Shown in pieces: positions 26,959 through 56,400 of a DNA stretch of 64,000 nucleotides. Position numbers and translations under genes: made by a program. Below the pieces are notes generated by a model that saw nothing but the letters and a program-made list of their open reading frames with translations, did not search any database and was not told the origin of the DNA. The stretch is from positions 233,012-297,011 of the forward strand of contig JAJEKV010000343.1 of NCBI GenBank assembly GCA_021234155.1. Reading direction: 5' to 3'. This DNA comes from Isoetes taiwanensis (Eukaryota > Streptophyta > Lycopodiopsida > Isoetales > Isoetaceae). Every line of letters begins with the position of its first letter. The stretch's first letter is position 1.

Positions 26959-26990
26959 GGAGGGAGGGAGGGAGGGAGGGAGGGAGGGGG
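26959..26990 (+). repeat. (GGGA)n minisatellite, G-quadruplex-prone; present in every unit
   Basis: About eight GGGA repeats follow a GTGTGTGTG run. Counterparts lie at about 33331-33370, 39737-39775 and 46098-46130 with differing copy numbers. Four or more G3 runs one base apart can form a quadruplex. It sits between divergent unit genes a and b. Confidence 0.85.
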
Positions 26991-27231
26991 TTGGATTCCC
27001 ACTATTGTCGGAATTCTTTTGGGATGCATGTGGATTGAAGAAAGGAGGACACTCAAAGAGAAGTTTGGGACTGGCTGTGGGCCTTCACTGGAGCCAAATG
27101 GTGTTGTGGCGCTATTTGAGCAGGCAGACCTCGACTTGAAGAAGACTTTTCCCCTGGAAAAGTCAAAGTTCTAGGTCAAATGGACAGACTTTCAGTCTAT
27201 GGTCAAAGTCAAGGGAAACCGAAGGGGGACA

Positions 27232-27405
27232 TTTTATTGTGACTTGCCATACTAATAATTGTGAAGAGACATTTTCTACTTGCGAAATGGCATTTGCAAT
27301 TCTAGAGACATTTTATTCTGACTCATCATACCAATAATTGTGAAGAGACATTTTCTACTTGCCAAATGGCATTTGCAATTCTAGAGACATTTTATTGTGA
27401 CACCA
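27232..27405. repeat. 79-bp tandem duplication and 24-bp tandem duplication in each unit
   Basis: GAGACATTTTCTACTTGC recurs at 27265 and 27344 with 79 bp of shared sequence per copy. Further on, GGATCAATTAAAAGGGAAGG is repeated twice (about 27504-27551). Both are also present in the other units. They form the upstream region of unit gene b. Confidence 0.85.
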
Positions 27406-27756
27406 TCTCAACATATATAATGCAGTCCCCATTTCTGTTTGATAGTATTATTTTTTTCCCAGCAAGAAATTTGGGGGCGACACGTGGAGGTCTTTCTAAA
27501 GCGGATCAATTAAAAGGGAAGGCTAGGATCAATTAAAAGGGAAGGCTAGGGACGTAAATTGCATTTTTGGCCTAAATGATTCTTTGCATCTTATAATTAA
27601 TAACTGAACGATTATGAGACAGAAATGGCGGCTACAACCTTCTTCTACCTGGTCGGATGTGGTAGTGGCTGCGATTGGATGCGATGGGAGCCCTGTACAG
27701 ATCTTAGGGAAATATATGGATCCTTGATTGAATGATTGAATGATGGACAACGTCTC

Positions 27757-27763
27757 TATAAAA
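27757..27763 (+). promoter_or_regulatory. TATA box of unit gene b
   Basis: TATAAAA lies 39 bp upstream of the chosen ATG (27796). The in-frame ATG at 27775 is too close to the TATA box to be in the transcript. The same arrangement exists in units 2 and 3 (about 34143 and 40542). Confidence 0.6.
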
Positions 27764-27795
27764 CCCAGCAACAGATGGGCTCCTTGTTGTGTGCT

Positions 27796-28330
27796 ATGGC
27801 TTCAAAGAAGCAAAAATTCCATGAGACCATCTCTGGTCCTCTGGATGATCATCTTCCATTGCCTAAGAGGATCAGGATCGACATACTAGTGTTGGTTGAT
27901 AGTAGGATTTTGCATGATGGTGAACAGGGGATTCATGACATTGGCGGTATGGAGGTGGCTAACACTGCAAAAATGGGTGATGGGTCTGATACCTTCGGTT
28001 CTGTCGTGTGATGGCTTGGATTTGCCTCAGTTCGAGTTTGCTTTGCCTGAGAATGAAGATTTCTTTGAATTAGACTGCTTTTTTTTTGGCTTACTCGGAG
28101 ATCTAGAAGAAAATACTGAAGTTGGACCATCATTTGAACTGACCAACACTCTGGTGGAAGAGGACCCTGAGCTTGCTATTCTGCCATACATATTTGGGTT
28201 TGATAACACGTTTGTTTGCAAGAGCTGTCTTTGTTTTGTTACGGAGGGGGAGGTCGATGAATTTGGACGGTGTAAGTCCTGCCTTAAGAACTCGTCGGAT
28301 GAAAGCTTCTTGTGGTTTATGGAACAATGA
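27796..28330 (+). pseudogene. Unit gene b, copy 1: frameshifted by a 14-bp deletion
   Basis: The frame begins MASKKQKFHETI and stops early at about 28010. Compared with unit 2, 14 bp are missing after GGTTCTG (about 27996). The rest of the protein continues in the next frame to TGA/TAA at 28330, ending with the CxxC motifs. Unit 1 is otherwise the cleanest sequence in the array, so this deletion is probably real. Confidence 0.7.
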
Positions 28331-28799
28331 AGGTTTGTGAACATTGCATGTTTGTGAATTTGCAATTACATGGCTCAATTGGAAGTTTAACTCTTCTAGA
28401 TACCTATTTGCAACCCCCTAAACATTGGCTTCGTTGTGCAGGTTGTCGCTATTTGAGCTTGGACAATGCTTCTTGATCATGGTTTTCTATAACAGTGGGT
28501 GTTTTGCAGTAGTAAAAGGTGTTTTTGTACATTGATTTTTTGTTGTTACTCTAAATATGGCGATTACAGTGATAGGAGGGCAGCATGGGACTGCAATGAA
28601 TCTCTAATAACCTGCATGTATAACTAAAATGCGGCTACTTGATGTACATTCTCGGCAGTTGTAAAAAATCTTTGAAAAATGCAACTCTTGGCGGTGTTTT
28701 GCTGATGTTATACCTGCCAATTAAGACAACAAATTATTGAATCCCAAGAACACATTGATCCCCAAAAGGAGATGTTGATATGGGCCTGTCTTACTTACC

Positions 28800-28930
28800 T
28801 GTCGGAATTCAACGTCCTGAAACGCACAAGCTCTACCCCACTTGGTATATTCAAGTCCATCAGTACCTTTTCTTTCGCAAATTGCAACATGATAAGGTGT
28901 TATTGGTTCAAAATATTGTTGTCCCTACTC
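28800..28930 (-). CDS. Possible minus-strand exon in each unit
   Basis: On the minus strand, after TAG/GGACAAC a frame reads QQYFEPITPYHVAICERKG and continues to ...CAFQDVEFRQ, ending at a GTAAGTAAG donor. The reading frame and splice-like borders suggest an internal exon, perhaps of the gene starting at 31418. No family is recognised. Confidence 0.3.
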
Positions 28931-30356
28931 GAACAGATGTGCCAGAGTGTATACTCTAAAACCTTCTTAATTTCACCTGTGATCGAAGCCAATTGGGAAC
29001 TATGCCCTTTGCATATCCCTCCGGAACCAATGGCTGAGAATACACAGTGAAACCTCTGTTCCTGGTCAATTTCTAATGCACAATATTGCAAATCCTGCAG
29101 TTAAATTCATTTTCAACATATATTTTTCTTCTTTGTATTTGTTTCATAGCAAAGTTGTGTAAGCTAACACCATTGGGCCATTGGCATGAATTGTAAATCT
29201 TCAAGTGAATTGGGCGAAAAATATTACAGCATCTAGGAAGTCATTTTATCAATCTTTTATGCTGGTTTATCTTCTCATTTTCCAGTTGTACAGTTCATGT
29301 TGTGCTCTCTCATCTCATTCATGTTGTGCTCTCTCATCTCATCATCATCTGCCTTTAATCGACTGTCAAAAATAAATTTTACAGGGACTTGGTTTATGAA
29401 AACATGTGCATGGACTTGAAACCCTTTTTAAAGAATATTTTTCTTCCTTGTTAGTGGCCTTAAGGCACGAGGCTAGATAACACATTTAACACTAGCAGAT
29501 TAGTTTTTTACAAAGGCTTTAACTTTAAAGATTACATGTGCAGGTTTAGAAATGAAAGGAACAATTGTGCAGTTAATATGGTCAGTGAGCTTTGTCTTAA
29601 TATTACGTATATCAAGTGCATACGACTGCAAATTGTCAGATATAGCAGTCTGACTTTTATTTTGTAGCCAAATTTCCTATGGGAATGTTAAGCTTAAAAG
29701 ACTGGAAAGTGTAGGTTCTGGCAAAAGTCAATGCTATTTATGCCTTCCTATTCTGTTAATCTTCTTCGCATGAAGATAAAGAGAGATGTCTCTGCAATTT
29801 CTTCCTGTCAAAATTAGAAACCCTCCAAATCTTGAGCATTAAGATTTTTAAACATTGCACCTTAGTTTGCTTTTCTATTCTTCAGATGTGTGCATAGTAA
29901 GCCGAATGTGTCACTGCATAATATTGAATTTTTTTGCTTTTTTGCTTTTTTGCGTAACTTAGTTTGGAATCATCCAAAGATGAGCTCATTTGCTTGTTAG
30001 CCTTCAGATCACTCCTCTGCATGAAGTTCACCCTTTTATGCCAATTATGGCGCACTTTATTACTTTCTTCATTGGAAAGTTTTTGCCCTTGAAAAGATGA
30101 AGGATATTGATATCATTATTTACTACCAGTTGAAGGGTTTATAGAGTTTCATTGAGGAGAATGGTAACAAGTGATTCACATAACATAGTCCTTTGCTCTT
30201 AGAGAAAAAAGCACGAGAAAAGCAGGGATGGATAGCATGTTATGCTTTATCCGGTGCGATGGGACTACAGGGCATATTCCCAGAGCTTTAGTTCCAACTA
30301 TTAGGAGGACAAAAAGAATGACTACATGCAATGAGTGTTGGGCTGCTTCTTTACAA

Positions 30357-31001
30357 ATGACAACTTGAACATGCATCTTCTTCAAGTTTATGCACATGCC
30401 AAAAAAAGCAAGTTCTTATTCTACATCAGTGAATTGGAAATGGCAGTGTAAACATCAAATAAATGATGCCAGATAATGCTATTGTGACCAATAGAAATAC
30501 CTTTGTTCTTTATGATGTTGCTCAGTTCACAGAACTTTTATGTTTTCTACATTGCTCAAAATGCAAAACGGTAACATCTATGCTCACAATATGAGAGCCT
30601 GTATTCATTAAAAGACCCAGCTCATTGCAACTGCCAAGCCACAGTTCAGAAGAATTTGAAAGATCTGAAAAAGTTAGCTGATCCTCATGCAAATAGGAAA
30701 CTAACCATCTTATCTGTTATTATAATGCATAAACTGCTTCTTTTCAAATGATAACTTGAACATGCATCTTCTTCAAGCTCATGCACATGCCAAAAAGCAA
30801 GTTCATATTCTACATCAATGAATTGGAAATGGCAGTGTAAATGTTAAATAAATGATGCCAGATAATGCTACCGTAACCAATAGAAATACCTTTGTTCTTT
30901 ATGATGTCCCTCAGTTCACAGAACTTTTATGTTTTCTACATTGCTGAAAATGCAAAACAGTAACATCTATGCTCACGATCTGAGAGCCTGCATTCATTAC
31001 C
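30357..31001. repeat. ~250-bp direct repeat inside the unit, plus 24-bp tandem repeat
   Basis: Bases 30357-30613 and 30748-31001 share a block from AACTTGAACATGCATCTTCT to GCATTCATTA with about 10% differences. Just after it, TTAATTGGGAAGCATGTGTC recurs three times (about 31025-31095). All are also present in units 2 and 3. Confidence 0.85.
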
Positions 31002-31148
31002 CAGTTCATTGCAACTGCCAACACAGCTGATTGGGAAGCATGCGTCCAGTTAATTGGGAAGCATGTGTCCGGTTAATTGGGAAGCATATGTCCTTCCCAG
31101 CATGAGAAATAACTGAAACTTTCTATTAACGATGAGAAGAAACTCACC

Positions 31149-31418
31149 TCATACTCCCAGGTAAGCTAAAGCAGTTGCATTGTACTCAGCGCATGGCCTA
31201 TCCACTGAAGGGGCCGCAAGAAGCCATACCACCGTTTCATTCACACCAATTGTTGTGCCGTAAGGAAACAAATCACTGAGATGGAAAGAAACACCCGTAC
31301 CATGGGTTCTCTCATTTAATTGCTCTTGGCAATCATCCGTTCTTAGCAAGAGCTTCCGGATACTGGGTTTGGGTCTACAGACATTGAGTGTTAATGGGCT
31401 AAATTTTTCAATGGTCAT
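31149..31418 (-). CDS. Unit gene c: first exon, unrecognised
   Basis: A minus-strand frame from ATG 31418 reads MTIEKFSPLTLNVCRPK... and ends ATALAYLGV at a stop overlapping a donor-like site (GTATGAG/GTGAGT); an earlier GTATGA donor would avoid the stop. A TATA box lies 70 bp upstream (31488-31494, minus). Copies are at about 37546-37815 and 43925-44195; the unit 2 and 3 versions are changed mostly at CAG/CTG positions. It is divergently paired with unit gene d. Function unknown. Confidence 0.4.
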   Translation of the reverse strand: MTIEKFSPLTLNVCRPKPSIRKLLLRTDDCQEQLNERTHGTGVSFHLSDLFPYGTTIGVNETVVWLLAAPSVDRPCAEYNATALAYLGV

Positions 31419-31487
31419 AGCTATGCCATCACGGCCCCTTGTCCGCCAAACGCAGAGAAACTGTCAGCTGAACGGTATGCGAACCGC

Positions 31488-31701
31488 ATTTATAAAGCAA
31501 CTTTTTGTAATGCAATCCGCTGGAGCATTAATAGTTAAATATGATGTCCTCCTTATTAAACGTAGATCCTTCTATATTGCCCCATATCATTATATCCAAG
31601 ATTTAGATTCCAAATTTTGCCTAAGATTTAGAATCAAGGGTATATCATCATGTGCATAGTTAATTTGAAAACGTGCCCACCCCATGCACACACATATAAA
31701 T
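31488..31701. promoter_or_regulatory. Bidirectional promoter between unit genes c and d
   Basis: TATAAAT on the minus strand (31488-31494) and TATAAAT on the plus strand (31695-31701) lie 200 bp apart and face outwards. The same pair exists in units 2 and 3. Confidence 0.5.
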
Positions 31702-31949
31702 AGGAGGCCTTTTGTGCTTCAAGCACCATTCGAGCAACTCTTCTCGCGCTCATCTTTTCCGCAGCCCTTCCATTCCTAAGGTATCCATTCCAGCCTTATC
31801 CTTGCTCCTTTGTATTTTTTATATAATGCACCCCTATGGCTTTTTTTGACCACTTTTGTTGTGCCAATTCTTGGTCTATGGTGTTCTTTGTTTTCTCGAA
31901 TTATTGTATAGACAATACTTTTTGGATTGACGACGTCCCCTCGTTTCAG

Positions 31950-32294
31950 ATGGGCATCCCATTGCCGGAGTCCATTGTCATGGGGACATCTAATATAAAA
32001 CGATTCCTATATATAGCAATTAAAGGGCATGGGGATGAATTATACCACGTTGAATGTGGTTGGATCCAAGGATCCTCGGAGGTTCTTTTCGACACCTTAG
32101 CTGTCGAGCGTTTTCTCCCTAAGTCTCTTCTCAATAAACTAGAATTAATGGAGACAAACTATCCATCAGGCGTGATATTCTACTACCTTGATAAGTACAT
32201 GGGTTGTGGCTCTCTTGGCCCTGTAGGAATTTTCAAGGTGGAGACTAAAATGGTGGATGGTAGAATTGAAGTGGAGATATTTAGTGGTACCTGA
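31950..32294 (+). CDS. Unit gene d, copy 1: CGWIQGS-family small protein
   Basis: A 114-codon frame begins MGIPLPESIVMGTSNIKRF at an ATG directly after a CAG acceptor-like site, exactly as in unit gene a. The frame is open 38 codons further upstream (from 31836), but that part resembles an intron following an AAG/GTATCC donor near 31780. The protein has CGWIQGSSEVLFDTL in the middle and ends VGIFKVETKM...EIFSGT, aligning with the minus-strand protein at 26153-26449. Shape and length suggest a compact beta-rich domain; no catalytic motif is obvious. A TATA box lies at 31695. Copy 2 encodes the identical protein. Confidence 0.55.
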   Translation: MGIPLPESIVMGTSNIKRFLYIAIKGHGDELYHVECGWIQGSSEVLFDTLAVERFLPKSLLNKLELMETNYPSGVIFYYLDKYMGCGSLGPVGIFKVETKMVDGRIEVEIFSGT

Positions 32295-32412
32295 TACTCT
32301 ATTTAGTCATTGATCAAGTTTGGATAACCGACTGTACCTTTGTTTGCTTTAATACTATAAGATTATAAGATTACCATATAAATACTGCTGGGGTGTCAAT
32401 GGAGCTCGCTAT

Positions 32413-32573
32413 ATGTGTTTTTTAAACTATTCAATTTGGTGTTTGTCTTTTGCGTTGTATTAAATAGTGAAATTGGTTGGAAAAAGGAGGGGGGCTATTG
32501 CCAGAGTATACGATGTGTGTTTGAAACTGTTTAATCTGGCGTTTGTCACTTGCATTGTAGTATATGGCGAAAT
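32413..32573. repeat. Imperfect ~60-bp direct repeat after unit gene d
   Basis: TGTGTTTTTTAAACTATTCA...GTGAAATT (32413-32475) and TGTGTTTGAAACTGTTTAAT...GCGAAATT (32514-32573) are diverged copies about 100 bp apart. They are also present after copies 2 and 3. Confidence 0.65.
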
Positions 32574-32817
32574 TATTTGCATCGTCTTCATCGGCTGCAA
32601 TTTCTTTGTTTCCAACAAATTCTTGAAGCCAAGAATCAACGATTTCAGTATCAAATTCCTCAGAACTCGGCAAGAAGGAATATTCTGGTGTGAATAGCTC
32701 TTCAGGAAAGAACTGATTAGAGATTAGAGAGTTCCACAGTTCTAAAGGTGATCCTTGCAAAAAACCACAAGCTAGCCTCGAGTTATGCTTGATAATTGTA
32801 AAGATTCTGATATCCAT
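32431..32817 (-). CDS. Unit gene a, copy 2: chimeric C-terminus made by the array junction
   Basis: The first 75 codons are the same as gene a (MDIRIFTIIK...VGNKEIAA). At 32594 the frame crosses the unit junction and continues for about 53 new codons (DEDDANNFAIYYNAS...) drawn from sequence downstream of gene d. The original GIFSV...VYSEQ end is lost. The copies at 39004-39226 and 45359-45580 have the same junction with more damage. Confidence 0.5.
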   Translation of the reverse strand: MDIRIFTIIKHNSRLACGFLQGSPLELWNSLISNQFFPEELFTPEYSFLPSSEEFDTEIVDSWLQEFVGNKEIAADEDDANNFAIYYNASDKRQIKQFQTHIVYSGNSPPPFSNQFHYLIQRKRQTPN

Positions 32818-34181
32818 CTGAAGTTTCTGACGTCAGAAATCATGAGGAATGCAAGCCCCTACAAGGCTAGCATGATTGATCCACAAATTCGGCTCCAAAC
32901 CTTTAGGAAATCAGCAGAATTCACCAAGAATTGAGTTTGTATCGAATAGGACAAATAAATCAAGAAAAAAGGCGCACATTGCTGACGTGTCCCACCTCTT
33001 AGACTTTTCGTCGCCAGCTTCATTTAGGATTCCCGAACGGGGATTTTGTCGACGTACTCTCTCAAGAGAAGTCTCGAGGCCATGTCCGCCCATGATGGGG
33101 GGAACTGTGTGTCTTGCCCATTGACATGCATATCGATGGGATAGGTCGAAGGGATGCAAGGCTCGTCTGATTCCTCTATCACTGGGGTGGCCATGGCAAC
33201 AGGAAGGATGGCCAAAGGATTGTAGAAGGCTCAACTAAATTGAAAGATGGCAATAAACATAAATGATGCCCGCCCTCAGTGGTTAGCACGGTGGAGTTTT
33301 GGGGGGGTTTAATCCTCTCAGGTGTGTGTGGGAGGAGGGAGGGAGGGAGGGAGGGAGGGAGGGAGAGGGGGGTGGGGTTCGATTCCCACTATTGTCGGAA
33401 TTCTTTTGGGATGCATGTGGATTGAAGAAAGGAGGACACTCAAAGAGAAGTTTGGGACCTGGTTGTGGGCCTTCACCGGAGCCAAATGGTGTTGTGGCTT
33501 ATTTGAGCAAAAAGTGACTCGATTGAAAAGACTTTTCCCCTGGAAAAGTCAAAGTTCTAGGTCAAATGGACAGACTTTCAGTCTATGGTCAAAGTCAAGG
33601 GAAACCGAAGGGGGACATTTTATTGTGACTTGCCATACTAATAATTGTGAAGAGACATTTTCTACTTGCGAAATGGCATTTGCAATTCTAGAGACATTTT
33701 ATTCTGACTCATCATACCAATAATTGTGAAGAGACATTTTCTACTTGCCAAATGGCATTTGCAATTCTAGAGACATTTTATTGTGACACCATCTCAACAT
33801 ATATAATGCAGTCCCCATTTCTGTTTGATAGTATTATTTTTTTCCCAGCAAGAAATTTGGGGGCGACACGTGGAGGTCTTTCTAAAGCGGATCAATTAAA
33901 AGGGAAGGCTAGGATCAATTAAAAGGGAAGGCTAGGACAGAAATTGCATTTTTGGCCTAAATGATTGCTGCATCTTATAATTAATAACTGTAAACGATTA
34001 TGAGACAGAAATGGCGGCTACAACCTTCTTCTACCTGGTCGGATGTGGTAGTGGCTGCGATTGGATGCGATGGGAGCCCTGTACAGATCTTAGGGAAATA
34101 TATGGATCCTTGATTGAATGATTGAATGATGGACAACGTCTCTATAAAACCCAGCAACAGATGGGCTCCTTGTTGTGTGCT

Positions 34182-34727
34182 ATGGCTTCAAAGAAGCGAA
34201 AATTCTATGAGACCATCTCTAATTCTCTGGATGATCATCTTCCATTGCCTAAGAGGATCAGGATCGACATACTAGTGATGATTGATAGTTGGATTTTGCA
34301 TGATGGTAAACAGGGGATTCATGACAGTGGCGGTATGGAGGTGGCTAACGCTGCAAAAATGGGTGATGGGTCTGATACCTTCGGTTCTGATGCAAGGGAT
34401 GGCTCGTGTGATGGCTTGGATTTGCCTCAGTTCGAGTTTGCTTTGCCTGAGAATGAAGATTTCTTCGAATTAGACTTTTTTTTTTGCTTACTCGGAGATC
34501 TAGAAGAAAATACTAAAGTTGGACCATCGTTTGAACTGACCAACACTCTGGTGGAAGAGGACCCTGAGCTTGATGTTCTGCCATATATATTTGGGTTTGA
34601 TAACACATTTATTTGCAAGAGCTGTCTTTGTTTTGTTACGGAGGGGGAGGTCGATGAATTTGGACGGTGTAAGTCCTGCCTTAAGAACTCGTCGGATGAA
34701 AGCTTCTTGTGGTTTATGGAACAATGA
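34182..34727 (+). CDS. Unit gene b, copy 2: intact protein with CxxC-x14-CxxC
   Basis: A 181-codon frame from ATG 34182, placed 39 bp after a TATA box. The N-terminus has two basic clusters (SKKRKF, PKRIRI) that could be nuclear localisation signals. The middle is acidic (LPENEDFFELDFFF, LVEEDPELD). The C-terminus carries ICKSCLCFVTEGEV and GRCKSCLKN, a four-cysteine arrangement able to bind zinc. I do not recognise the family; it could be a small nuclear regulator, but that is inference. It is the only one of four copies that reads through. A shorter frame starting at 34122 only adds residues upstream of the likely transcription start. Confidence 0.65.
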   Translation: MASKKRKFYETISNSLDDHLPLPKRIRIDILVMIDSWILHDGKQGIHDSGGMEVANAAKMGDGSDTFGSDARDGSCDGLDLPQFEFALPENEDFFELDFFFCLLGDLEENTKVGPSFELTNTLVEEDPELDVLPYIFGFDNTFICKSCLCFVTEGEVDEFGRCKSCLKNSSDESFLWFMEQ

Positions 34728-37700
34728 AGGTTTGTGAACATTGCATGTTTGTGAATTTGCAATTACATGGCTCAATTGGAAGTTTAACTCTTCTAGATAC
34801 CTATTTGCAACCCCCTAAACATTGGCTTCGTTGTGCAGGTTGTCGCTATTTGAGCTTGGACAATGCTTCTTGATCATGGTTTTCTATAACAGTGGGTGTT
34901 TTGCAGTAGTAAAAGGTGTTTTTGTACATTGATTTTTTGTTGTTACTCTAAATATGGCGATTACAGTGATAGGAGGGCAGCATGGGACTGCAATGAATCT
35001 CTAATAACCTGCCTGTATAACTAAAATGCGGCTACTTGATGTACATTCTCGGCAGTTGTAAAAAATCTTTGAAAAATGCAACTCTTGGCGGTGTTTTGCT
35101 GATGTTATACCTGCCAATTAAGACAACAAATTATTGAATCCCAAGAACACATTGATCCCCAAAAGGAGATGTTGATATGGGCCTGTCTTACCACACAGCC
35201 AATTCAACGTCCTGAAACGCACAAGCTCTACCCCACTTGGTATATTCAAGTCCATCAGTACCTTTTCTTTCGCAAATTGCAACATGATAAGGTGTTATTG
35301 GTTCAAAATATTGTTGTCCCTACTCGAACAGATGTGCCAGAGTGTATACTCTAAAACCTTCTTAATTTCACTGTGCGGAAGCCAATTGGGAACTATGCCT
35401 TTGCATATCCCTGGGGAACCAATGGTGAGAATACCAAATGAAACCTCATTCTGGTCAATTTCTAATGCACAATATTGCAAATCCTGCAGTTAAATTCATT
35501 TTCAACATATATTTTTCTTCTTTGTATTTGTTTCATAGCAAAGTTGTATAAGCTAACACCATTGGGCCATTGGCATGAATTGTAAATCTTCAAGTGAATT
35601 GGGCTAAAAAATATTACTGACATCTAGGAAGTCATTTTATCAATCTTTTATGCTGGTTTATCTTCTCATTTTTTCGGTTAATAGTTCATGTTGTGCTCTC
35701 TCGATCTCATTCATGTTGTGCTCTCTCATCTCATCATCATCTGCCTTTAATCGATTCAAAAAAAAATAAATTTTACAGGGGACTTGGTTTATGAAAACAT
35801 GTGCATGGACTTGAAACCCTTTTAAAGAATATTTTTTCTTCCTTGTTAGTGGCCTTAAGGCACGCGAGGCTAGATAACACATTTAACACTACTGTGATTA
35901 GTTTTTTTACAAAGGCTTTAACTTTAAAGATTACATATGCAGTTTAGAAATGAAAGGAACAATTGTGCGCTTAATATGGTGATTGAGCTTTGTCTTAATA
36001 TTACATGATATCAAGTGCATAATGACCGCAAATTGTCGATATAGCAGTCGACTTTTATTTTGTAGCCATTTCCTATGGGAATGTTAAGCTTAAAAGACTG
36101 GAAAGTGTAGGTTCCCGCAAAAGTCAATGCTATTTATGCCTTCCTATTACATTAATCTTCTTCTTGATGAAGATAAAGAGAGATGTCTCTCGCAATTTCT
36201 TCTGTCAAAATTAGAAACCCTCGGATCTTGAGCATTAAGGTTTTAAACATTGCACCTTAGTTTGCTTTTCTATTCTTGAGATGTGTGCATAGTAAGCCGA
36301 ATGTGTCACGAGACAATATTGAATTTTCTTGCTTTTGCTTTTTTTGCGAGGAACTTAGTTTGGAATCATCGGCATGAGCTCATTTGCTTGTTAGCCGGAT
36401 CACTCCTCTGCATGAAGTTCACCCTTTTATGCCAATTATGGCGCACTTTATTACTTTCTTCATTGGAAAGTTTTTGCCCTTGAAAAGATGAAGGATATTG
36501 ATATCATTATTTACTACCAGTTGAAGGGTTTATAGAGTTTCATTGAGGAGAATGGTAACAAGTGATTCACATAACATAGTCCTTTGCTCTTAGAGAAAAG
36601 CACGAGAAAAAGCACGGGGATAGCATGTTATGCTTTATCCCGAGGCGATGGGACTCGGGGGCATATTCCCAGAGCTTTAGTTCCAACTATTAGGAGGACA
36701 AAAAGAATGACTACATGCAATGAGTGTTGGGCTGCTTCTTTACAAATGACAACTTGAACATGCATCTTCTTCAAGATTATGCACATGACCAAAAAAAGCA
36801 AGTTCTTATTCTACATCGATTGAATTGAAATGGCGATTGTAAACATCAAATAAATGATGCGGATAATGCTATTGTGACCAATAGAAATACCTTTGTTCTT
36901 TATGATGTTGCTTTCGGTTCACGAGAACTTTTATGTTTTTCTACATTGCTCAAAATGCAAAGCGGTAACATCTATGCTCACAAATGAGAGCTCCGTATTC
37001 ATTAAAAGACCCGACTCATTGCAACCGCCAAGCCCACGATTCGTAAGAATTTGAAAGATCACGAAAAAGTTAGCTGATCCTCATGCAAATAGGAAACTAA
37101 CCATCTTATACATTATTATTATAATGCATAAAACCGCTTCTTTTCAAATGATAACTTGAACATGCATCTTCTTCAAGCTCATGCACATGCCAAAAGCAAG
37201 TTCATATTCTACATCAATGAATTGGAAATGGCAAAGTGTAAATGTTAAATAAATGATGCCGATAATGCTACCAGAACCAATAGAAATACCTTTGTTCTTT
37301 ATGATGTCCCAAGTTCCACGTAACTTTTATGTTTTCTACATTGCTGAAAATGCAAAACAAGAACATCTATGCTCACGATCCGAGCCACGTGATTCATTAC
37401 CAGTTCATTGCAACCGCCAACACGGTGATTGGGAAGCATCGCCCAGTTAATTGGGAAGCATGTGTCCGGTTAATTGGGAAGCATATGTCCTTCCCAGCAT
37501 GAGAAATAACTGAAACTTTCTATTAACGATGAGAAGAAACTCACCTCATACTCCCAGGTAAGCTAAAGCAGCTGCATTGTACTTTCGCCAAGCATGGCCT
37601 ATCCACTTGAAGAGGGACGAAGAAGCCATACCACCGCTTTCATTCACACCAATTGTTGTGCCGTAAAGGAAACAAATCACCGAGATGGAAAGAAACACCC

Positions 37701-38362
37701 GCATACCATGGGTTCTCTCATTTAATTGCTCTTGGCAATCATCCGTTCTTAGCAAGAGCTTCCGGATATTGGGTTTGGGTCTACGGACATTGAGTGTTAA
37801 TGGGCTAAATTTTTCAATGGTCATAGCTATGCCATCACGGCCCCTTGTCCGCCAAACGCAGAGAAACCGGTACCACCGACCCTTATCCGCGAACCGCATT
37901 TATAAAGCAACTTTTTGTAATGCAATCCATTTGGAGCATTAATAGTTAAATATGATGTCCTCCTTATTAAACGTAGATCCTTCTATATTGCCCCATATCA
38001 TTATATCCAAGATTTAGATTCCAAATTTTGCCTAAGATTTAGAATCAAGGGTATATCATCATGTGCATAGTTAATTTGAAAACGTGCCCACCCCATGCAC
38101 ACACATATAAATAGGAGGCCTTTTGTGCTTCAAGCACCATTCGAGCAACTCTTCTCGCGCTCATCTTTTCCGCAGTGACCTTCCATTCCTAAGGTATCCA
38201 TTCCAGCCTTATCCTTGCTCCTTTGTATTTTTTATATAATGCACCCCTATGGCTTTTTTTGACCACTTTTGTTGTGCCAATTCTTGGTCTATGGTGTTCT
38301 TTGTTTTCTCGAATTATTGTATAGACAATACTTTTTGGATTGACGACGTCCCCTCGTTTCAG

Positions 38363-38707
38363 ATGGGCATCCCATTGCCGGAGTCCATTGTCATGGGGAC
38401 ATCTAATATAAAACGATTCCTATATATAGCAATTAAAGGGCATGGGGATGAATTATACCACGTTGAATGTGGTTGGATCCAAGGATCCTCGGAGGTTCTT
38501 TTCGACACCTTAGCTGTCGAGCGTTTTCTCCCTAAGTCTCTTCTCAATAAACTAGAATTAATGGAGACAAACTATCCATCAGGCGTGATATTCTACTACC
38601 TTGATAAGTACATGGGTTGTGGCTCTCTTGGCCCTGTAGGAATTTTCAAGGTGGAGACTAAAATGGTGGATGGTAGAATTGAAGTGGAGATATTTAGTGG
38701 TACCTGA
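38363..38707 (+). CDS. Unit gene d, copy 2
   Basis: The translation over 38249-38707 is identical to copy 1 (31836-32294). The flanking 0.9 kb is also nearly identical to unit 1 and free of the CAG/CTG changes seen elsewhere in unit 2. Confidence 0.55.
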   Translation: MGIPLPESIVMGTSNIKRFLYIAIKGHGDELYHVECGWIQGSSEVLFDTLAVERFLPKSLLNKLELMETNYPSGVIFYYLDKYMGCGSLGPVGIFKVETKMVDGRIEVEIFSGT

Positions 38708-39003
38708 TACTCTATTTAGTCATTGATCAAGTTTGGATAACCGACTGTACCTTTGTTTGCTTTAATACTATAAGATTATAAGATTACCATATAAATACTG
38801 CTGGGGTGTCAATGGAGCTCGCTATATGTGTTTTTTAAACTATTCAATTTGGTGTTTGTCTTTTGCGTTGTATTAAATAGTGAAATTGGTTGGAAAAGGA
38901 GGGGGCTATTGCCGAGTATCGATGTGTGTTTGAAACCATTTTACCGGGCGTTTTGTCACTTGCATTGTAGTATATGGCGAAATTATTTGCATCGTCTTCA
39001 TCG

Positions 39004-39226
39004 GCTGCAATTTCTTTGTTTCAACAAATTCTTGAAGCCAAGAATCAACGATTTCAATTATCAAATTCCTCGAACTTCGGCAAGAAGGAATATTCCGTGT
39101 GAATAGCTCTTCGAGAAAGAACCGATTAGAGATTAGAGAGTTCCACGGTTCTAAAGGTGATCCTTGCAAAAACCACAAGCTAGCCCTCGAGTTATGCTTG
39201 ATAATTGTAAAGATTCCGATATCCAT
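39004..39226 (-). pseudogene. Unit gene a, copy 3 (altered at CAG/CTG sites)
   Basis: The frame still begins MDIGIFTIIKHNSR. It differs from unit 1 at nearly every CAG or CTG: CAGAACTCGG becomes CGAACTTCGG, TTCTGGTG becomes TTCCGTG. The resulting changes (GFLQGS is preserved, downstream frame broken) cannot be trusted. A fourth copy at 45359-45580 is similar. Confidence 0.45.
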
Positions 39227-40580
39227 CTCAAGTTTCTCGACGCCGAATCATGAGGAATGCAAGCCCCTACAAGGCTAGCATGATTGATCCACAAATTCGG
39301 CTCCAAACCTTTAGGAAATCAGCAAATTCACCAAGAATTGAGTTTGTATCGAATAGGACAAATAAATCAAGAAAAAAAAGGCGCACATTGCCGACGTGTC
39401 CCACCTCTTAGACTTTTCACGATTGACTTCATTTAGGATTCCCGAACGGGATTTTGTCGACGCACTCTCTCAAGAGAAGTCTCGAGGCCATGTCCAGCCC
39501 ATGATGGGGAACTGTGTCTTGCCCATTGACATGCATATCGATGGGATAGGTGAAGGGATGCAAGGCTGGCCGTCGATTCCTCTATCACCGGGTGGCCATG
39601 GCAACAGGAAGGATGGCCAAAGGATTGTAGAAGGCTCAACTAAATTGAAAGATGGCAATAAACATAAATGATGCCCGCCCTCAGTGGTTAGCACGGTGGA
39701 GTTTTGGGGGGGTTTAATCCTCTGTGTGTGTGTGGGAGGGAGGGAGGGAGGGAGGGAGGGAGGGAGGGAGAGGGGGGGGGTTCGATTCCACTATTGCCGG
39801 AATTCTTTTTGGGATGCATGTGGATTGAAGAAAGGAGGACACTCAAAGAGAAGTTTGGGACTGGCTGTGGGCCTTCACTGGAGCCAAATGGTGTTGTGGC
39901 GCTTATTTGAGCAGGCAGACCTGACTTGAAGAAGACTTTTCCCCTGGAAAAGTCAAAGTTCTAGGTCAAATGGACAGACTTTCAGTCTATGGTCAAAGTC
40001 AAGGGAAACCGAAGGGGGACATTTTATTGTGACTTGCCATACTAATAATTGTGAAGAGACATTTTCTACTTGCGAAATGGCATTTGCAATTCTAGAGACA
40101 TTTTATTTCGACTCATCATACCAATAATTGTGAAGAGACATTTTCTACTTGCCAAATGGCATTTGCAATTTAGAGACATTTTATTGTGACACCATCTCAA
40201 CATATATAATGCAGATTCCCATTTACATTTTGATAGTATTATTTTTTCCCAAAGAAGAAATTTGGGGCTTACACGTGGAGGTCTTTCTAAAAGCGGATCA
40301 ATTAAAAGGGAAGGCTAGGATCAATTAAAAAGGGAAGGCTAGGACAGAAATTGCATTTTTGGCCTAAATGATTCTTGCATCTTATAATTAATAATCAGAA
40401 ACGATTATGAGACGTAAATGGCTACAACCTTCTTCTACGGTGGGATGTGGTAGTGGTGCATTGGATGCGATGGGAGCCTGCATGCATCTTAGGGAAATAT
40501 ATGGATCCTTGATTGAATGATTGAATGATGGACAACGTCTCTATAAAACCCAGAACCAGATGGGCTCCTTGTTGTGTGCT

Positions 40581-41120
40581 ATGGCTTCAAAGAAGCGAAA
40601 ATTCTATGAGACCATCTCTAATTCTCTGGATGATCATCTTCCATTGCCTAAGAGGATCAGGATCGACATACTAGTGATGATTGATAGTTGGATTTTGCAT
40701 GATGGTAAACAGGGGATTCATGACTGTGGCGGTATGGAGGTGGCTAACGCTGCAAAAATGGGTGATGGGTCTGATACCTTCGGTTCTGATGCAAGGGATG
40801 GCTCGTGTGATGGCTTGGATTTGCCTCAGTTCGAGTTTGCTTTGCCTGAGAATGAAGATTTCTTTGAATTAGACTTTTTTTTTTTCTGAGATCTAGAAGA
40901 AAATACTAAAGTTGGACCATCGCTTGAACCGACCAACACTCTGGTGGAAGAGGACCCGAGCTTGATGTTACGCCATATATATTTGGGTTTGATAACACAT
41001 TTATTTGCAAGATTTGTCTTTGTTTTGTTACGGAGGGGAGGTCGATGAATTTGGACGGTGTAAGTCCTGCCTTAAGAACTCGGGCTTCGGATGAAAGCTT
41101 CTTGTGGTTTATGGAACAAT
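40581..41120 (+). pseudogene. Unit gene b, copy 3: broken
   Basis: It is identical in style to copy 2 up to about 40880, then about 10 bp after the poly-T run (the CTTACTCGG block) are missing and the frame ends. Downstream differences cluster at CAG/CTG sites, so part of the damage may be an assembly artefact. Confidence 0.55.
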
Positions 41121-44100
41121 GAAGGTTTGTGAACATTGCATGTTTGTGAATTTGCAATTACATGGCTCAATTGGAAGTTTAACTCTTCTAGATACCTATT
41201 TGCAACCCCCTAAACATTGGCCGTTGTGTGGGGTTGTCGCTATTTGAGCTTGGACAATGCTTCTTGATCATGGTTTTCTATAACAGTGGGTGTTTTGCAG
41301 TAGTAAAAGGTGTTTTTGTACATTGATTTTTGTTGTTACTCTAAATATGGCGATTACAGTGATAGGAGGGCAGCATGGGACTGCAATGAATCTCTAATAA
41401 CCTGCTCTGTATAACTAAAATCACGGCTACTTGATGTACATTCTCGGCGGTTGTAAAAATCTTTGAAAAATGCAACTCTTGGCGGTGTTTTCTTGATGTT
41501 ATACCCGCCAATTAAGACAACAAATTACTGAATCCCAAGAACATATTGATCCTCAAAAGGAGATGTTGATATGGGCATGTCTTACTTACAGCCGAATTCA
41601 ACGTCCCGAACGCACAAGCTCTACCCCACTTGGTATATTCAAGTCCATGGTACCTTTTCTTTTCGCCAAATTGCAACATGATAAGGTGTTATTGGTTCAA
41701 AATATTGTTGTCCCTACTTTCGAGCAGATGTGCGAGTGTATACTCTAAAACCTTCTTAATTTCACTGTGATGAAGCCAATTGGGAACTATGCCCTTTGCA
41801 TATCCCTCCGGAACCAATGGCTGAGAATACACAGTGAAACCTCTGTTCCTGGTCAATTTCTAATGCACAATATTGCAAATCCTGCAGTTAAATTCATTTT
41901 CAACATATATTTTTCTTCTTTGTATTTGTTTCATAGCAAAGTTGTATAAGCTAACACCATTGGGCCATTGGCATGAATTGTAAATCTTCAAGTGAATTGG
42001 TGAGAAAAATATTACAGCATCTAGGAAGTCATTTTATCAATCTTTTATGCTGGTTTATCTTCTCATTTTCCAGTTGTACAGTTCATGTTGTGCTCTCTGA
42101 TCTCATTCATGTTGTGCTCTCTCATCTCATCATCATCTGCCTTTAATCATTTATCAAAAATAAATTTTCGGGGACTTGGTTTATGAAAACATGTGCATGG
42201 ACTTGAAACCCTTTTAAAGAATTTTTTCTTCCTTGTTAGTGGCCTTAAGGCACGAGGCTAGATAACACATTTAACACTAGCGATTAGTTTTTTTACAAAG
42301 GCTTTAACTTTAAAGATTACATGTGCGAGTTTAGAAATGAAAGGAACAATTATGCATTAATATGGTCAGTGAGCTTTGTCTTAATATTACGTATATCAAG
42401 TGCATACGACTGCAAATTGTCAGATATAGCAGTCTGACTTTTATTTTGTAGCCAGATTTCCTATGGGAATGTTAAGCTTAAAAGACTGGAAAGTGTAGGT
42501 TCTGGCAAAAGTCAATGCTATTTATGCCTTCCTATTCTGTTAATCTTCTTCGCATGAAGATAAAGAGAGATGTCTCTGCAATTTCTTCCTGTCAAAATTA
42601 GAAACCCTCCAGATCTTGAGCATTAAGGTTTTTAAACATTGCACCTTAGTTTGCTTTTCTATTCTTCAGATGTGTGCATAGTAAGCCGAATGTGTCACAG
42701 ACAATATTGAATTTTCTTGCTTTTTGCTTTTTTGCAGAACTTAGTTTGGAATCATCCAGCATGAGCTCATTTGCTTGTTAGCCTTCAGATCACTCCTCTG
42801 CGAGTTCACCCTTTTATGCCAATTATGGCGCACTTTATTACTTTCTTCATTGGAAAGTTTTTGCCCTTGAAAAGATGAAGGATATTGATATCATTATTTA
42901 CTACCAGTTGAAGGGTTTATAGAGTTTCATTGAGGAGAATGGTAACAAGTGATTCACATAACATAGTCCTTTGCTCTTAGAGAAAAAGCACAGAGAAAAA
43001 GCACAGGGATAGCATGTTATGCTTTATCCCAGGCGATGGGACTACAGGGCATATTCCCAGAGCTTTAGTTCCAACTATTAGGAGGACAAAAAGAATGACT
43101 ACATGCAATGAGTGTTGGGCTGCTTCTTTACAAATGACAACTTGAACATGCATCTTCTTCAAGTTTATGCACATGCCAAAAAAAGCAAGTTCTTATTCTA
43201 CATCAGTGAATTGGAAATGGCAGTGTAAACATCAAATAAATGATGCCAGATAATGCTATTGTGACCAATAGAAATACCTTTGTTCTTTATGATGTTGCTC
43301 AGTTCACAGAACTTTTATGTTTTCTACATTGCTCAAAATGCAAAACGGTAACATCTATGCTCACAAATGAGAGCCCTGTATTCATTAAAAGACCCACTCA
43401 TTGCAACCGCCAAGCCACAGTTCGGAAGAATTTGAAAGATCTGAAAAAGTTAAGTTGATCCTCATGCAAATAGGAAACTAACCATCTTATCTCGTTATTA
43501 TAATGCATCCTTGCTTCTTTTCAAATGATAACTTGAACATGCATCTTCTTCAAGCTCATGCACATGCCAAAAAGCAAGTTCATATTCTACATCAATGAAT
43601 TGGAAATGGCAGTGTAAATGTTAAATAAATGATGTCAGATAATGCTACCGTAACCAATAGAAATACCTTTGTTCTTTATGATGTCCCTCAGTTCACAGAA
43701 CTTTTATGTTTTCTACATTGCTGAAAATGCAAAACAGTAACATCTATGCTCACGATCGAGAGCCTTTGCATTCATTACCGGTTCATTGCAAGCGCCAACA
43801 CGGTGATTGGGAAGCATGCGTCCAGTTAATTGGGAAGCATGTGTCCGGTTAATTGGGAAGCATATGTCCTTCCCAGCATGAGAAATAACTGAAACTTTCT
43901 ATTAACGATGAGAAGAAACTCACCTCATACTCCCTGGTAAGCTAAAGCAGCTGCATTGTACTCAGCGCATGGCCTATCCACTGAAGGGGCCGCAAGAAGC
44001 CATACCACCGTTTCATTCACACCAATTGTTGTCGTAAGGAAACAAATCATCGAGATGGAAAGAAACACCCGTACCATGGGTTCTCTCATTTAATTTCTTG

Positions 44101-44699
44101 GCAATCATCCGTTCTTAGCAAAGAGCTTAGGATATTGGGTTTGGGTCTCTGAGACATTGAGTGTTAATGGGCTAAATTTTTCAATGGTCATAGCTATGCC
44201 ATCCCCTTGTCCGCCAAACGCAGAGAAACCGGCAGACTGAGCGGTATACGAACGCATTTATAAAGCAACTTTTTGTAATGCAATCTTTGGAGCATTAATA
44301 GTTAAATATGATGTCCTCCTTATTAAACGTAGATCCTTCTATATTGCCCCATATCATTATATCCAAGATTTAGATTCCAAATTTTGCCTAAGATTTAGAA
44401 TCAAGGGTATATCATCATGTGCATAGTTAATTTGAAAACGTGCCCACCCCATGCACACACATATAAATAGGAGGCCTTTGTGCTTCAAAGCACCATTCGG
44501 GACAACTCTTCTCGCTCATCTTTTCCATAGCCCTTCCATTCCTAAAGGTATCCATTCGGCCTTATCCTTGCTCCTTTGTATTTTTATATAATGCACCCCT
44601 ATGGCTTTTTTTGACCACTTTTGTTGTGCCAATTCTTGGTCTATGGTGTTCTTTGTTTTCTGAATTATTGTATAGACAATACTTTTTGGATTGACGACG

Positions 44700-45062
44700 T
44701 CCCTCGTTTTAGGATGGGCATCCCATTGCCGGAGTCCATTGTCATGGGGACATCTAATATAAAACGATTCCTATATATAGCAATTAAAGGGCATGGGGAT
44801 GAATTATACCACGTTGAATGTGGTTGGATCCAAGGATCCTCGGAGGTTCTTTTCGACACCTTAGTCAGCATGGCGCTTTTCTCCCTAAGTCTCTTCTCAA
44901 TAAACTAGAATTAATGGAGACAAACTATCCATCGGTTGATATTCTACTACCTTGATAAAGTACATGGGTTGTGGCTCTCTTGGCCCCTGTAGGAATTTTC
45001 AAGGTGGAGACTAAAATGGTGGATGGTAGAATTGAAGTGGAGATATTTAGTGGTACCACGAT
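44700..45062 (+). pseudogene. Unit gene d, copy 3: frame broken
   Basis: The first half matches copies 1 and 2. Changes such as AGCTGTCGAG to AGTCAGCATG (about 44865) and the loss of CAGGCG at about 44935 break the frame. These fall in CAG/CTG-containing words and may be artefacts. Unit 4 ends before this gene. Confidence 0.5.
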
Positions 45063-46947
45063 ACTCTATTTAGTCATTGATCAAGTTTGGATAACCGACT
45101 GTACCTTTGTTTGCTTTAATACTATAAGATTATAAGATTACCATATAAATACTGTTGGGGTGTCAATGGAGCTCGCTATATGTGTTTTTTAAACTATTCA
45201 ATTTGGTGTTTGTCTTTGCGTTGTATTAAATAGTGAAATTGGTTGGAAAAAGGAGGGGGCTATTGCCGAGTATCGATGTGTGTTTTGGCTGACTTTAACC
45301 GGGCGTTTGTCACTTGCATTGTAGTATATGGCGAAATTATTTGCATAAGTCTTCATCGGCTGCAATTTCTTTTGTTTCCAACAAATTCTTGAAGCCAGAA
45401 TCAACGATTTCAATATCAAATTCCTCGAATTTCGGCAAGAAGGAATATTCTCGGTGTGAATAGCTCTTCGTGAAAGAACTGATTAGAGATTAGAGAGTTC
45501 CACCGGTTCTAAAGGTGATCCTTGCAAAAACCACAAGCTAGCCTCGAGTTATGCTTGATAATTGTAAAGATTCTGATCCATCCATCCGTTTCGACGTCGG
45601 AAATCATGAGGAATGCAAGCCCCTACAAGGCTAGCATGATTGATCCACAAATTCGGCTCCAAACCTTTAGGAAATCAGCAAAATTCACCAAGAATTGAGT
45701 TTGTATCGAATAGGACAAATAAATCAAGAAAAAAGGCGCACATTGCTGGCGTGTCCCACCTCTTAGACTTTTCGCCATGACTTCATTTAGGATTCCCCGA
45801 ATCGGGATTTTGTCGACGCACTCTCTCAAGAGAAGTCTCGAGGCCATGTCCGCCCATGATGGGGGAACTCGGTGTCTTGCCCATTGACATGCATATCGAT
45901 GGGATAGGTCAAGGGATGCAAGGGCTGCGTCGATTCCTCTATCAATGGGGCGGCCATGGCAACAGGAAGGATGGCCAAAGGATTGTAGAAGGCTCAACTA
46001 AATTGAAAGATGGCAATAAACATAAATGATGCCCGCCCTCGGTTAGCAGGGGGTGGGAGTTTTGGGGGTTTAATCCTCTTTGTGTGTGTGTGTGTGTGGG
46101 AGGGAGGAGGGAGGGAGGGAGGGGAGGGAGGGGTTCGATTCGACTATTGCCGGAATTCTTTTGGGATGCATGTGGATTGAAGAAAGGAGGACACTCAAAG
46201 AGAAGTTTGGGACTGGTTGTGGGCCTTCACTTTGGGAGCCAAATGGTGTTGTATGTTATTTGGCAACCGGACACTCGACTTGAAGAAGACTTTTCCTGGA
46301 AAAGTCAAAGTTCTAGGTCAAATGGACAGACTTTCAGTCTATGGTCAAAGTCAAGGGAAACCAGAAGGGGACATTTTATTGTGACTTGCCATACTAATAA
46401 TTGTGAAGAGACATTTTCTACTTGCGAAATGGCATTTGCAATTCTAGAGACATTTTATTCGACTCATCATACCAATAATTGTGAAGAGACATTTTCTACT
46501 TGCCAAATGGCATTTGCAATTCTAGAGACATTTTATTGTGACACCATCTCAACATATATAATCACGATCCCCATTTTACGTTTTGATAGTATTATTTTTT
46601 CCCAAAGAAGAAATTTGGGGGCTTACACGCGGGAGGTCTTTCTAAAAGCGGATCAATTAAAAGGGAAGGCTAGGATCAATTAAAAGGGAAGGCTAGGACG
46701 AAATTGCATTTTTGGCCTAAATGATTGCCTTGATCTTATAATTAATAACCGTGAAACGATTATGAGGTAAATGGGGCTACAACCTTCTTCTACGGGTGGG
46801 ATGTGGTAGTGGTCGCTGATTGGATGCGATATGGGGAGCCTGTCTGCAGATCTTAGGGAAATATATGGATCCTTGATTGAATGATTGAATGATGGACAAC
46901 GTCTCTATAAAACCCAAAGAATGGAGATGGGCTCCTTGTTGTGTGCT

Positions 46948-47500
46948 ATGGCTTCAAAGAGTTTAAAATTCTATGAGACCATCTCTAATTCTCACGGATG
47001 ATCATCTTCCATTGCCTAAGAGGATGGGGATCGACATACCAGTGATGATTGATAGTTGGATTTTGCATGATGGTAAATGGGGATTCATGATGGCGGCGGT
47101 ATGGAGGTGGCTATATTTGCAAAAATGGGTGATGGGTCCGATAATTTCTGGCTCGATGCAAGGGATGGCTCGTGGTGATGGCTTGGATTTGCCTCTATTC
47201 GAGTTTGCTTTGCCTCGAGAATGAAGATTTCTTGAATTAGACTTTTTTTTTGCTTACCGGGAGATCTAGAAGAAAATACTCAAAGTTGGACCATCGCTTG
47301 AACTGACCAACACTCGGGTGGAAGAGGACCCCGAGCTTGATGTTCTCGCCATATATATTTGGGTTTGATAACACATTTATTTGCAAGAGCCGCCTTTGTT
47401 TTGTTACGGAGGGGAGGTCCATGAATTTGATTTGGGTAAGTCCCGCGCTTTAAGAACTCGCTTGGATGAAAGCTTTTTTGTGGTTTATGGAACAATGAAG
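46948..47500 (+). pseudogene. Unit gene b, copy 4: heavily altered
   Basis: The ATGGCTTCAAAGAG start is present, but many indels follow, mostly where unit 2 has CAG, CTG or CCTGG. No long frame remains. Whether the real gene is intact cannot be decided from this sequence. Confidence 0.5.
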
Positions 47501-48596
47501 GTTTGTGAACATTGCATGTTTGTGAATTTGCAATTACATGGCTCAATTGGAAGTTTAAACTCTTCTAGATACCTATTTGCAACCCCCTAAACATTGGCTT
47601 CGTTGCAGTGTGTTGTCGCTATTTGAGCTTGGACAATGCTTCTTGATCATGGTTTTCTATCTTGATGGGTGTTTTGCGAGTAGTAAAGGTGTTTTTGTAC
47701 ATTGATTTTTGTTGTTACTCTAAATATGGCTTATTAGTTGATAGGAGGGCAAAGATGCAGCATGGAATGAATCTCTAATAACCCTACCAGATAACTAAAA
47801 TGCGCTACTTGATGTACATTCTCAAGTAGCTTAAAAAATCTTTGAAAAATGCAACTTGGGTGTTTTGTTGATGTTATACCTCCGCCAATTAAGACAACAA
47901 ATTATTGAATCCTTAAGAACACATTGATCCCAAAAGGAGATGTTGATATAACTGTCTTACTTTTGTCGGAATTCAACGCCCCAAACGCATTAAGCTCTTC
48001 ACCCCACTTGGTATATTCAAGTCCATCATTACCTTTTCTTTTTTGCAAATTGCAACATGATAAGGTGTTATTGGTTCAAAATATTGTTGTCCCCTTTCGA
48101 ACGTGATGTGCGAGGTATACTCTAAAACCTTCTTAATTTCACTGCGGATCGAAGCCAATTGGGAACTATGCCTTTGCATATCCCTCGGAACCAATAGGAA
48201 TACACAATGAAACCTCTATTCTCGGGTCAATTTCTAATGCACAATATTGCAAATCCTAGGGGTTAAATTCATTTTCAACATATATTTTTCTTCTTTGTAT
48301 TTGTTTCATAGCAAAGTTGTGTAAGCTAACACCATTGGGCCATTGGCATGAATTGTAAATCTTCAGTGAATTGGGCTTAAAAATATTACAGCATCTAGGA
48401 AGTCATTTTATCAATCTTTTATGCTGGTTTATCTTCTCATTTTCCAGTTGTACAGTTCATGTTGTGCTCTCTCATCTCATTCATGTTGTGCTCTCTCATC
48501 TCATCATCATCTGCCTTTAATCGACTGTCAAAAATAAATTTTACAGGGACTTGGTTTATGAAAACATGTGCATGGACTTGAAACCCTTTTTAAAGA

Positions 48597-55857: not shown

Positions 55858-56070
55858 TAACCATAACCAGGTCAAAACGATGTTAAAAAATCAGTGCTAT
55901 CTACTACTAAGCCATTTATGGTTTTGATGCACTAAACATGAAAGGTTGTGGACTACCAACCAATAATGACTTAAGAATTAAACAGGTTAACTTGCCACAA
56001 TATTTAATCATGTAGTTTTAATACTCACCATATTTAGAAACCACATTCATGAAGTGTTATACTAAACTAT

Positions 56071-56400
56071 TGTTTGGGGTCTGGGTTCGGGAACTCCTGC
56101 AAGACAGCCCTCTGTGAGGACCCTTGGATCTAACAGGAGAATCCGGGGGACTATGTCACGCGGGATTTGCAAAAGAAAAACAAGAAGAAGAAAACAGAAC
56201 AAAAGAGAACAATGAGAAGAAAATGATAAGCTTCCTTGATATCAATGATAAACATACATGAGCTCTCGCAATCGAGAGAGGACTGAAGAGAGACAAGACT
56301 CAAAACTCATCTAAAAACTCATGTGCTAGCTCTACTCATATATATAGTACAATGGTCTTTGGCCCAATATAGACACTCTGATCGATCGGTCTGCGACTCA
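56071..56400 (-). mobile_element. Probable 3' LTR of a minus-strand LTR retrotransposon
   Basis: The outer edge is TGTTTGGGGTCTGGG on the plus strand (so it ends ...CAAACA on the minus strand). The minus strand has a TATA box (complement of 56338-56348), then a pyrimidine-rich TTCTTCTTCTTG tract, as in plant LTR R-U5 regions. No primer-binding site follows the CA end, which fits a 3' rather than a 5' LTR. The inner edge is not determined. Confidence 0.45.

Follow-up and report, generated by a model that had tools for sequence, protein, structure and literature searches.

A tandem array of a 6.4-kb unit (about 3.5 copies, positions 26226-48596) in the quillwort Isoetes taiwanensis contains patches in which units 2-4 diverge from their neighbours, and these patches are very probably, for the most part, nanopore consensus errors at 5-methylcytosine in CG and CHG contexts (H, any base but G) and not mutations. 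The window analysed comprises the last 64 kb (positions 233012-297011) of the 297,011-base contig JAJEKV010000343.1, from an assembly of 1.66 Gb over 1110 contigs, and positions given below are those of the window. The alterations are specific in sequence context, take non-mutational forms, arose independently in units 3 and 4, recur at unrelated repeats, including 5S ribosomal RNA (rRNA) genes and a high-copy repeat, and are absent from low-copy paralogs. These observations support the proposal of the earlier note, made from the letters of the window, that the differences reflect methylation-linked base-calling error. The array and its units were delimited by BLAST comparison of the window with itself.

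26226-32593, plus strand: unit 1, the cleanest copy, used as the reference row
32594-39003, plus strand: unit 2
39004-45358, plus strand: unit 3
45359-48596, plus strand: unit 4, truncated

Sequence context and kind of the alterations

To score context, reference letters were restricted to positions at which a second unit agreed with unit 1, and the remaining unit was then scored. This was applied to four dirty segments, given in alignment columns (unit 3, 0-2640 and 5200-6528; unit 4, 0-2950; unit 2, 2640-5200), each of which contains some clean patches. Columns in which the two witness units disagreed were excluded (102, 132, 139 and 32 in the four segments). CAG and CTG words (CWG) were altered at 123 of 183 places, compared with 29 of 178 for GAC and GTC (GWC). 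By segment, CWG words were altered at 31/48 places in unit 2 (GWC, 2/30), at 33/59 and 7/11 in the first and second segments of unit 3, and at 52/65 in unit 4 (GWC, 15/64). The five most altered of the 32 reverse-complement trinucleotide classes are exactly the five that hold CHG or CG: CAG/CTG together with CGC/GCG (26/52), CCG/CGG (26/57), ACG/CGT (34/77) and CGA/TCG (42/113). The next highest class is AGC/GCT (43/191, 22.5%), and AAT/ATT lies at the bottom (19/515). The tabulation speaks strongly for the earlier note, which had placed the changes mainly at CAG and CTG, but they are not confined to these words, CG and CCG/CGG being affected as well.

Non-random alteration of CAG and CTG in the array units is confirmed, far beyond chance, by a circular-shift control. 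The observed altered fraction for CAG and CTG was 0.672 against a shift mean of 0.146 (standard deviation 0.021), a value reached by none of 500 shifts, whereas the reversed words gave 0.163 against 0.148, reached by 144 of 500 shifts and thus at background. In the dirty parts, a change lay within two bases of the motif at 130 of 177 CWG sites, 72 of 149 CG sites and 46 of 102 CG sites without a nearby CWG, compared with 52 of 712 CHH sites away from CG and CHG. The per-base error rate there drops with distance: 0.47 at the CWG centre, 0.19 at two bases and 0.03-0.05 from seven bases onward. As a control, the private changes of unit 1 (102 substitutions and 17 indel events) fall at 8/46 CWG, 12/71 CG and 9/504 CHH sites.

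The kind of change is equally distinctive. With the motif and one base on each side considered, 126 of 169 CAG/CTG sites in the dirty parts were changed: 42 differ in length, 54 in several bases and 22 in another single base, leaving 8 with a single C>T or G>A. The shifted self-match of the array shows 532 mismatches to 344 gap openings. The two longest duplicate pairs elsewhere in the window (3604-4817/8810-10027 and 2632-3607/5893-6859) give 104:14 and 56:3, and for shorter non-array pairs the figures run from 25:2 to 7:3. Compared with these, the array thus holds an abnormal proportion of indels.

Units 3 and 4 can be compared directly at 53 CAG/CTG sites scorable in both, within the first 2640 columns. 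Both units are altered at 33 of these, unit 4 only at 14, unit 3 only at 2 and neither at 4. At the 33 sites altered in both, the outcome (motif and two bases on each side) is the same at one. Thus, the same sites were changed to different outcomes, which descent does not explain. CTCAGAA appears as CTCGAA in both units. A gain of CG was considered as a special outcome of CWG miscalls and rejected: it occurred at 49 of 108 changed CWG sites with CG-free surroundings, but 14 of 29 changed GWC sites gained one as well, so that it is not specific to CWG.

All eight words quoted in the earlier note could be located, no more than about 10 bases from the places it gave for them, where it gave any. 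GATCTGAAAAAG stands at 30662 and 43438 and its altered form GATCACGAAAAAG at 37057; CTGCCAAGCCACAG is found at 30631, with CCGCCAAGCCCACG at 37025. Likewise, CAGAACTCGG at 26293 and 32661 corresponds to CGAACTTCGG at 39071, and CTACCTGGTCGG at 27645 and 34031 to CTACGGTGGG at 40435.

Paralogous loci and other repeats

Five paralogous loci elsewhere in the genome, with pieces 75-94% alike, allowed the direction of change to be judged (pieces below 350 bases were excluded from the paralog tally, and pieces of 500 bases or less from the pairwise repeat tallies). Against these loci, CWG words were altered at 27-44% in unit 1 (GWC, 26-34%), 45-57% in unit 2 (26-35%) and 63-74% in unit 3 (32-38%), while in unit 4 the figure reached 93-97% of the aligned CWG words (48-63%). 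Comparison of the paralogs with each other, in 10 pairs, gave 27-57% for CWG and 23-55% for GWC, with 4.7-12.2 mismatches per gap opening. Since unit 1 is ordinary and unit 4 extreme by this measure, the words that have been altered are for the most part ancestral, and it is the dirty copies that deviate. In a tally that pools six overlapping pairs, so that one site may count repeatedly, the commonest outcomes of CAG among the five loci were TAG (23) and CAA (14), and those of CTG were CCG (12), CTA (7) and TTG (4). TAG and CAA are the expected products of true methylcytosine decay acting on CAG.

The error type is not special to the array: of three further repeat sets able to show it, a high-copy repeat and the 5S rRNA genes carry it, and a diverged LINE-like family (long interspersed nuclear element) lacks it. 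The low-copy or diverged DNA compared here, in which polishing can work, is free of it, both the array paralogs and the LINE-like family being ordinary.

60001-64000, no strand assigned: interspersed repeat of high copy number, at the end of the contig, sharing the error type (BLAST)
23003-23494, minus strand: LINE-like open frame with a PF03372 endonuclease/exonuclease/phosphatase domain (Pfam E 3.9e-15)

The 5S rRNA genes were preselected as a conserved yardstick, the reference being a copy in the assembly with a score of 110 bits for the Rfam family. The sample covers 12 loci (L019-L030, on contigs C13, C986, C907 and C936) from at least 47 matches, and the tally excludes 12 of 79 matches shorter than 96 positions as well as overlaps of loci. 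Of the 53 places, 11 are perfect and 42 imperfect, with perfect and damaged genes side by side in the same arrays. The imperfect genes hold 255 mismatches and 221 gap openings; CWG words are altered at 100/163 places compared with 15/122 for GWC, CCG/CGG words at 140/408 and other CG words at 156/329. Recurrent changes include ATCAGAA to ATCGAA (26/53), TACTGGG to TCTTGGG or TCTTTGGG (30/53) and CTCCCGGGA to CTCCGGGA (15/52). An identical miscall, TCAGAA to TCGAA, is found in array units 3 and 4 and in the 5S genes, which are unrelated loci. With 42 of the 53 places imperfect, studies of 5S diversity based on this assembly would mislead.

The best other copy of the high-copy repeat is 84% alike among the matches listed by BLAST; the search gave at least 40 matches, and the best 37 of 4516 first-look candidates were scored. 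Fifteen pairs of six copies, on six contigs, have 1.25-2.06 mismatches per gap opening, and CWG words are changed at 58-83%, GWC words at 25-50%; CWG exceeded GWC in all 15 pairs. This repeat was chosen for its low ratio of CWG to GWC words in the window, and the other five copies are the best matches to the one in the window, so the copies are not a random sample. Part of the apparent divergence among them is probably false. The LINE-like family at 21.5-25.5 kb shows ordinary divergence, with 7.0-25.6 mismatches per gap opening in 15 pairs, and in 8 of these the CWG words changed most often by a single C>T or G>A.

Clean and dirty patches and their likely origin

Altered and intact CAG/CTG sites are strongly clustered. 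The number of runs was 38 in unit 2 compared with 79.5 after shuffling (0 of 2000 shuffles as low), 44 compared with 82.0 in unit 3 (0 of 2000) and 21 compared with 31.5 in unit 4 (2 of 2000). The following parts, all on the plus strand, were assigned from the state of these sites, with the context tally in support for the dirty parts and the paralogs as well for that of unit 4.

32594 to about 35183: unit 2, clean, with exceptions at 33463-33512, 34219 and 34474-34513
35372-37931: unit 2, mostly dirty with short intact stretches
38173-38801: unit 2, clean
38913-38945: unit 2, altered again
39055-39588, 40226-40483, 40873-41014 and 41448-41766: unit 3, main dirty runs
42151-42355, 43395-43511, 43757-43803 and 44050-45300: unit 3, main dirty runs, continued
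45359-48249: unit 4, mostly dirty
48250-48596: unit 4, clean end, 98.3% identical to unit 1

At the exceptions in unit 2, unit 1 may be the differing copy. Clean patches or lone intact sites occur between and inside the main dirty runs of unit 3. In unit 4, 66 of 79 unit-1 CAG/CTG sites are altered up to 48260, the final alteration, after which the next seven sites are intact. The earlier note had begun the dirty region at 35190, which is not common to all units, unit 3 being dirty from about 39055. The alternation it described is borne out: the four stretches it named as clean match another unit at 98.3-99.7%, and for six stretches lying elsewhere the best match in another unit reaches 90.3-96.6%.

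A simple sequence of events would account for these patterns. Native DNA with 5-methylcytosine at the CG and CHG sites of the array would have been read by a base caller untrained on this signal in plant contexts, which would miscall the surrounding k-mer and produce deletions, insertions and multi-base substitutions within about 5 bases. As the error would recur at the same site in most reads, it would survive the read consensus. Later polishing, probably with short reads, would then have mended unique and diverged DNA and some repeat copies, leaving other near-identical copies untouched and hence alternating clean and dirty patches. Unpolished sequence would also be expected to show the extra differences that dirty patches have far from CG and CHG. 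From the contexts involved, it is natural to infer that the array carries CHG methylation, which is probable, and the heavy CHG methylation proposed by the earlier note is reasonable.

Among the alternatives, the strongest accepts methylation-linked errors but takes the clean patches to be unmethylated and not polished, so that the mosaic would be a map of methylation. The clean low-copy paralogs may merely lack CHG methylation, and clean and dirty 5S copies do occur within the same arrays, as this would allow. The switch between clean and dirty, however, takes place over tens to hundreds of bases, in some cases inside a single 5S gene. In addition, with a clean patch defined as a run of at least 5 intact CAG/CTG sites, 72 of 5269 bases more than 6 bases from any CG or CHG differ in dirty patches, compared with 5 of 2459 in clean ones. 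Clean patches are thus cleaner even far from these sites, which fits polishing and which a methylation mosaic does not explain. We consider a methylation map improbable, and clean patches cannot be read as unmethylated. The proposal that the uncorrected errors in assemblies of this kind are a fossil record, marking repeat copies that were CG- and CHG-methylated in the sequenced tissue, is possible but doubtful. If it were true, the FASTA file by itself would yield a methylation map of repeats, and published estimates of the age of such repeats, and of the gene losses called in them, would be too high.

Real deamination of methylated cytosines in heavily methylated units, giving C>T at CG and CHG, would act in the same contexts. 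The CG enrichment of the unit 1 private differences and the prevalence of TAG and CAA among the paralogs speak for it. In the dirty parts, however, changes are not mainly C>T or G>A, which make up only 8 of the 126 changed CAG/CTG sites, and indels or multi-base changes predominate; sites shared by units 3 and 4 were changed to different sequences, and 5S rRNA genes are damaged in a similar manner. Deamination is therefore very unlikely to be the cause. Random long-read error at low coverage near the contig end, unrelated to methylation, would suit the position of the array 15-38 kb from that end, its abundant indels and the greater difference of dirty parts even away from CG and CHG, but we give it hardly any credence, as the errors are concentrated at CG and CHG, the context table is not flat, units 3 and 4 are hit repeatedly at common sites, and the errors are found again in 5S arrays on other contigs.

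Several points weigh against consensus error at methylated cytosines as the explanation, or limit its reach. That nanopore reads were used, that the sites are methylated and how the sequence was polished are all deduced from the assembled letters. The private changes of unit 1 are mildly enriched at CWG (0.094 vs 0.042, reached by 2 of 500 shifts) and more strongly at CCG/CGG (0.278 vs 0.042, reached by none), indicating that real mutation or alignment contributes a part; the effect in the dirty parts is therefore a matter of size. CG contexts are altered at 37-50%, and CpG methylation is expected to be the kind best known to base callers. CCG is the commonest outcome of CTG not only in the paralogs but also in the dirty parts (8). 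Relative to the paralogs, non-target words of unit 4 are raised too, CHH (37-46%) as well as GWC. In the 5S genes, words outside CWG and CG are altered at 837 of 3861 places, with some, GCC and GTA, above CAG; these words adjoin CG or CHG sites, but the array gives the stronger contrast. Away from CG and CHG, errors in homopolymer length are not significantly more frequent in dirty (9/86) than in clean (2/35) patches (p 0.51). Finally, had one copy won all the polishing reads, dirty patches in unit 2 would be expected to face clean ones in unit 3 and the reverse. Instead, 31 of 162 sites are altered in both, with 31.8 expected if the units were independent, so this picture of short-read capture by a single copy is unsupported.

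Open frames, precedents and minor features

The errors bear on the open frames of the unit, two of which are given here as they stand in unit 2.

34122-34727, plus strand: 201-residue open frame, intact in unit 2 only
38249-38707, plus strand: 152-residue open frame of unit 2, identical in unit 1 (31836-32294)

The 201-residue frame lies in two pieces in unit 1 (27736-28002 and 28004-28327), in two in unit 3 (40521-41039 and 40955-41119) and over three frames in unit 4 (46885-47495). Of these breaks, those in units 3 and 4 are suspect, whereas the one in unit 1 may be a true mutation, since unit 1 is the cleanest copy and has a 14-base gap relative to units 2-4 at about 28003. The 152-residue frame is broken over three frames in unit 3 (44601-45057), in keeping with the suspicion of the earlier note about the frameshifts. 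A Pfam search with four frames of the unit, including these two, gave no match, and neither did a search of the PDB with the 201- and 152-residue frames.

Apparent broken genes and extra divergence in the later units should not be taken as biology. The features at risk of being misread as real are the frameshifts or pseudogenes of units 3 and 4, the apparent 10% divergence of unit 4, the apparent 5S rRNA variation and the apparent divergence of the high-copy repeat on other contigs of this assembly. A cheap test is available for any plant assembly: near-identical repeats are compared and the changes tabulated by trinucleotide, the sign being CAG/CTG words that turn into something other than TAG, CAA, TTG or CTA.

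The present case is a known kind of artefact in a plant assembly and no new biological system. In a study of Klebsiella pneumoniae, the Dcm motifs CCAGG/CCTGG account for about 70% of consensus errors under default nanopore models (PMC6591954). As in the array, those errors are systematic at 5-methylcytosine in a CWG core, survive consensus and are only partly mended, there by signal polishing; the bacterial motif is a pentamer, whereas the array is affected at CAG/CTG generally and at CG, in a plant, with a mosaic of clean and dirty repeats. In Listeria, an untrained modification leads to errors at the motifs GCAGC and GCTGG (PMC10687267). These are likewise recurrent at fixed motifs and, per that paper, correctable by demodification; the mechanism of the Listeria modification is unclear, whereas the contexts in the array agree with the CG and CHG methylation of plants. 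Methylation of plant DNA at CG, CHG and CHH is stated in PMC8514461. Plant DNA methylation has been named a likely cause of lower nanopore base-calling accuracy in plants (PMC9749173), in a work that deals with read-level accuracy and whose main text lacks the word CHG, in contrast to the context table of consensus errors given here. The word is likewise absent from PMC8746966. A literature search that covered few subscription journals found no paper on systematic nanopore errors at plant CHG sites, and we do not claim that the matter is unpublished.

An Rfam scan of the window gave no match at gathering score. A Pfam search with 10 short frames of 56-64 kb, made to name the high-copy repeat, gave no match; by eye alone it was taken as Ty3-like. 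When long terminal repeat pairs were sought for dating, copy C346 had no match of at least 300 bases between its two flanks, L031 and L008 had none above 150 bases within them, and L032 had only weak ones inside it (78-82%). The region 56001-64000 is G+C-rich, with short broken frames and few CAG/CTG words. Each full unit of the array contains a direct-repeat pair of about 300 bases (30343-31026, 36732-37420 and 43120-43798), the two members being 90.4%, 81.1% and 88.4% alike in units 1, 2 and 3, respectively; the value for unit 2 is as expected if that unit is dirty there.

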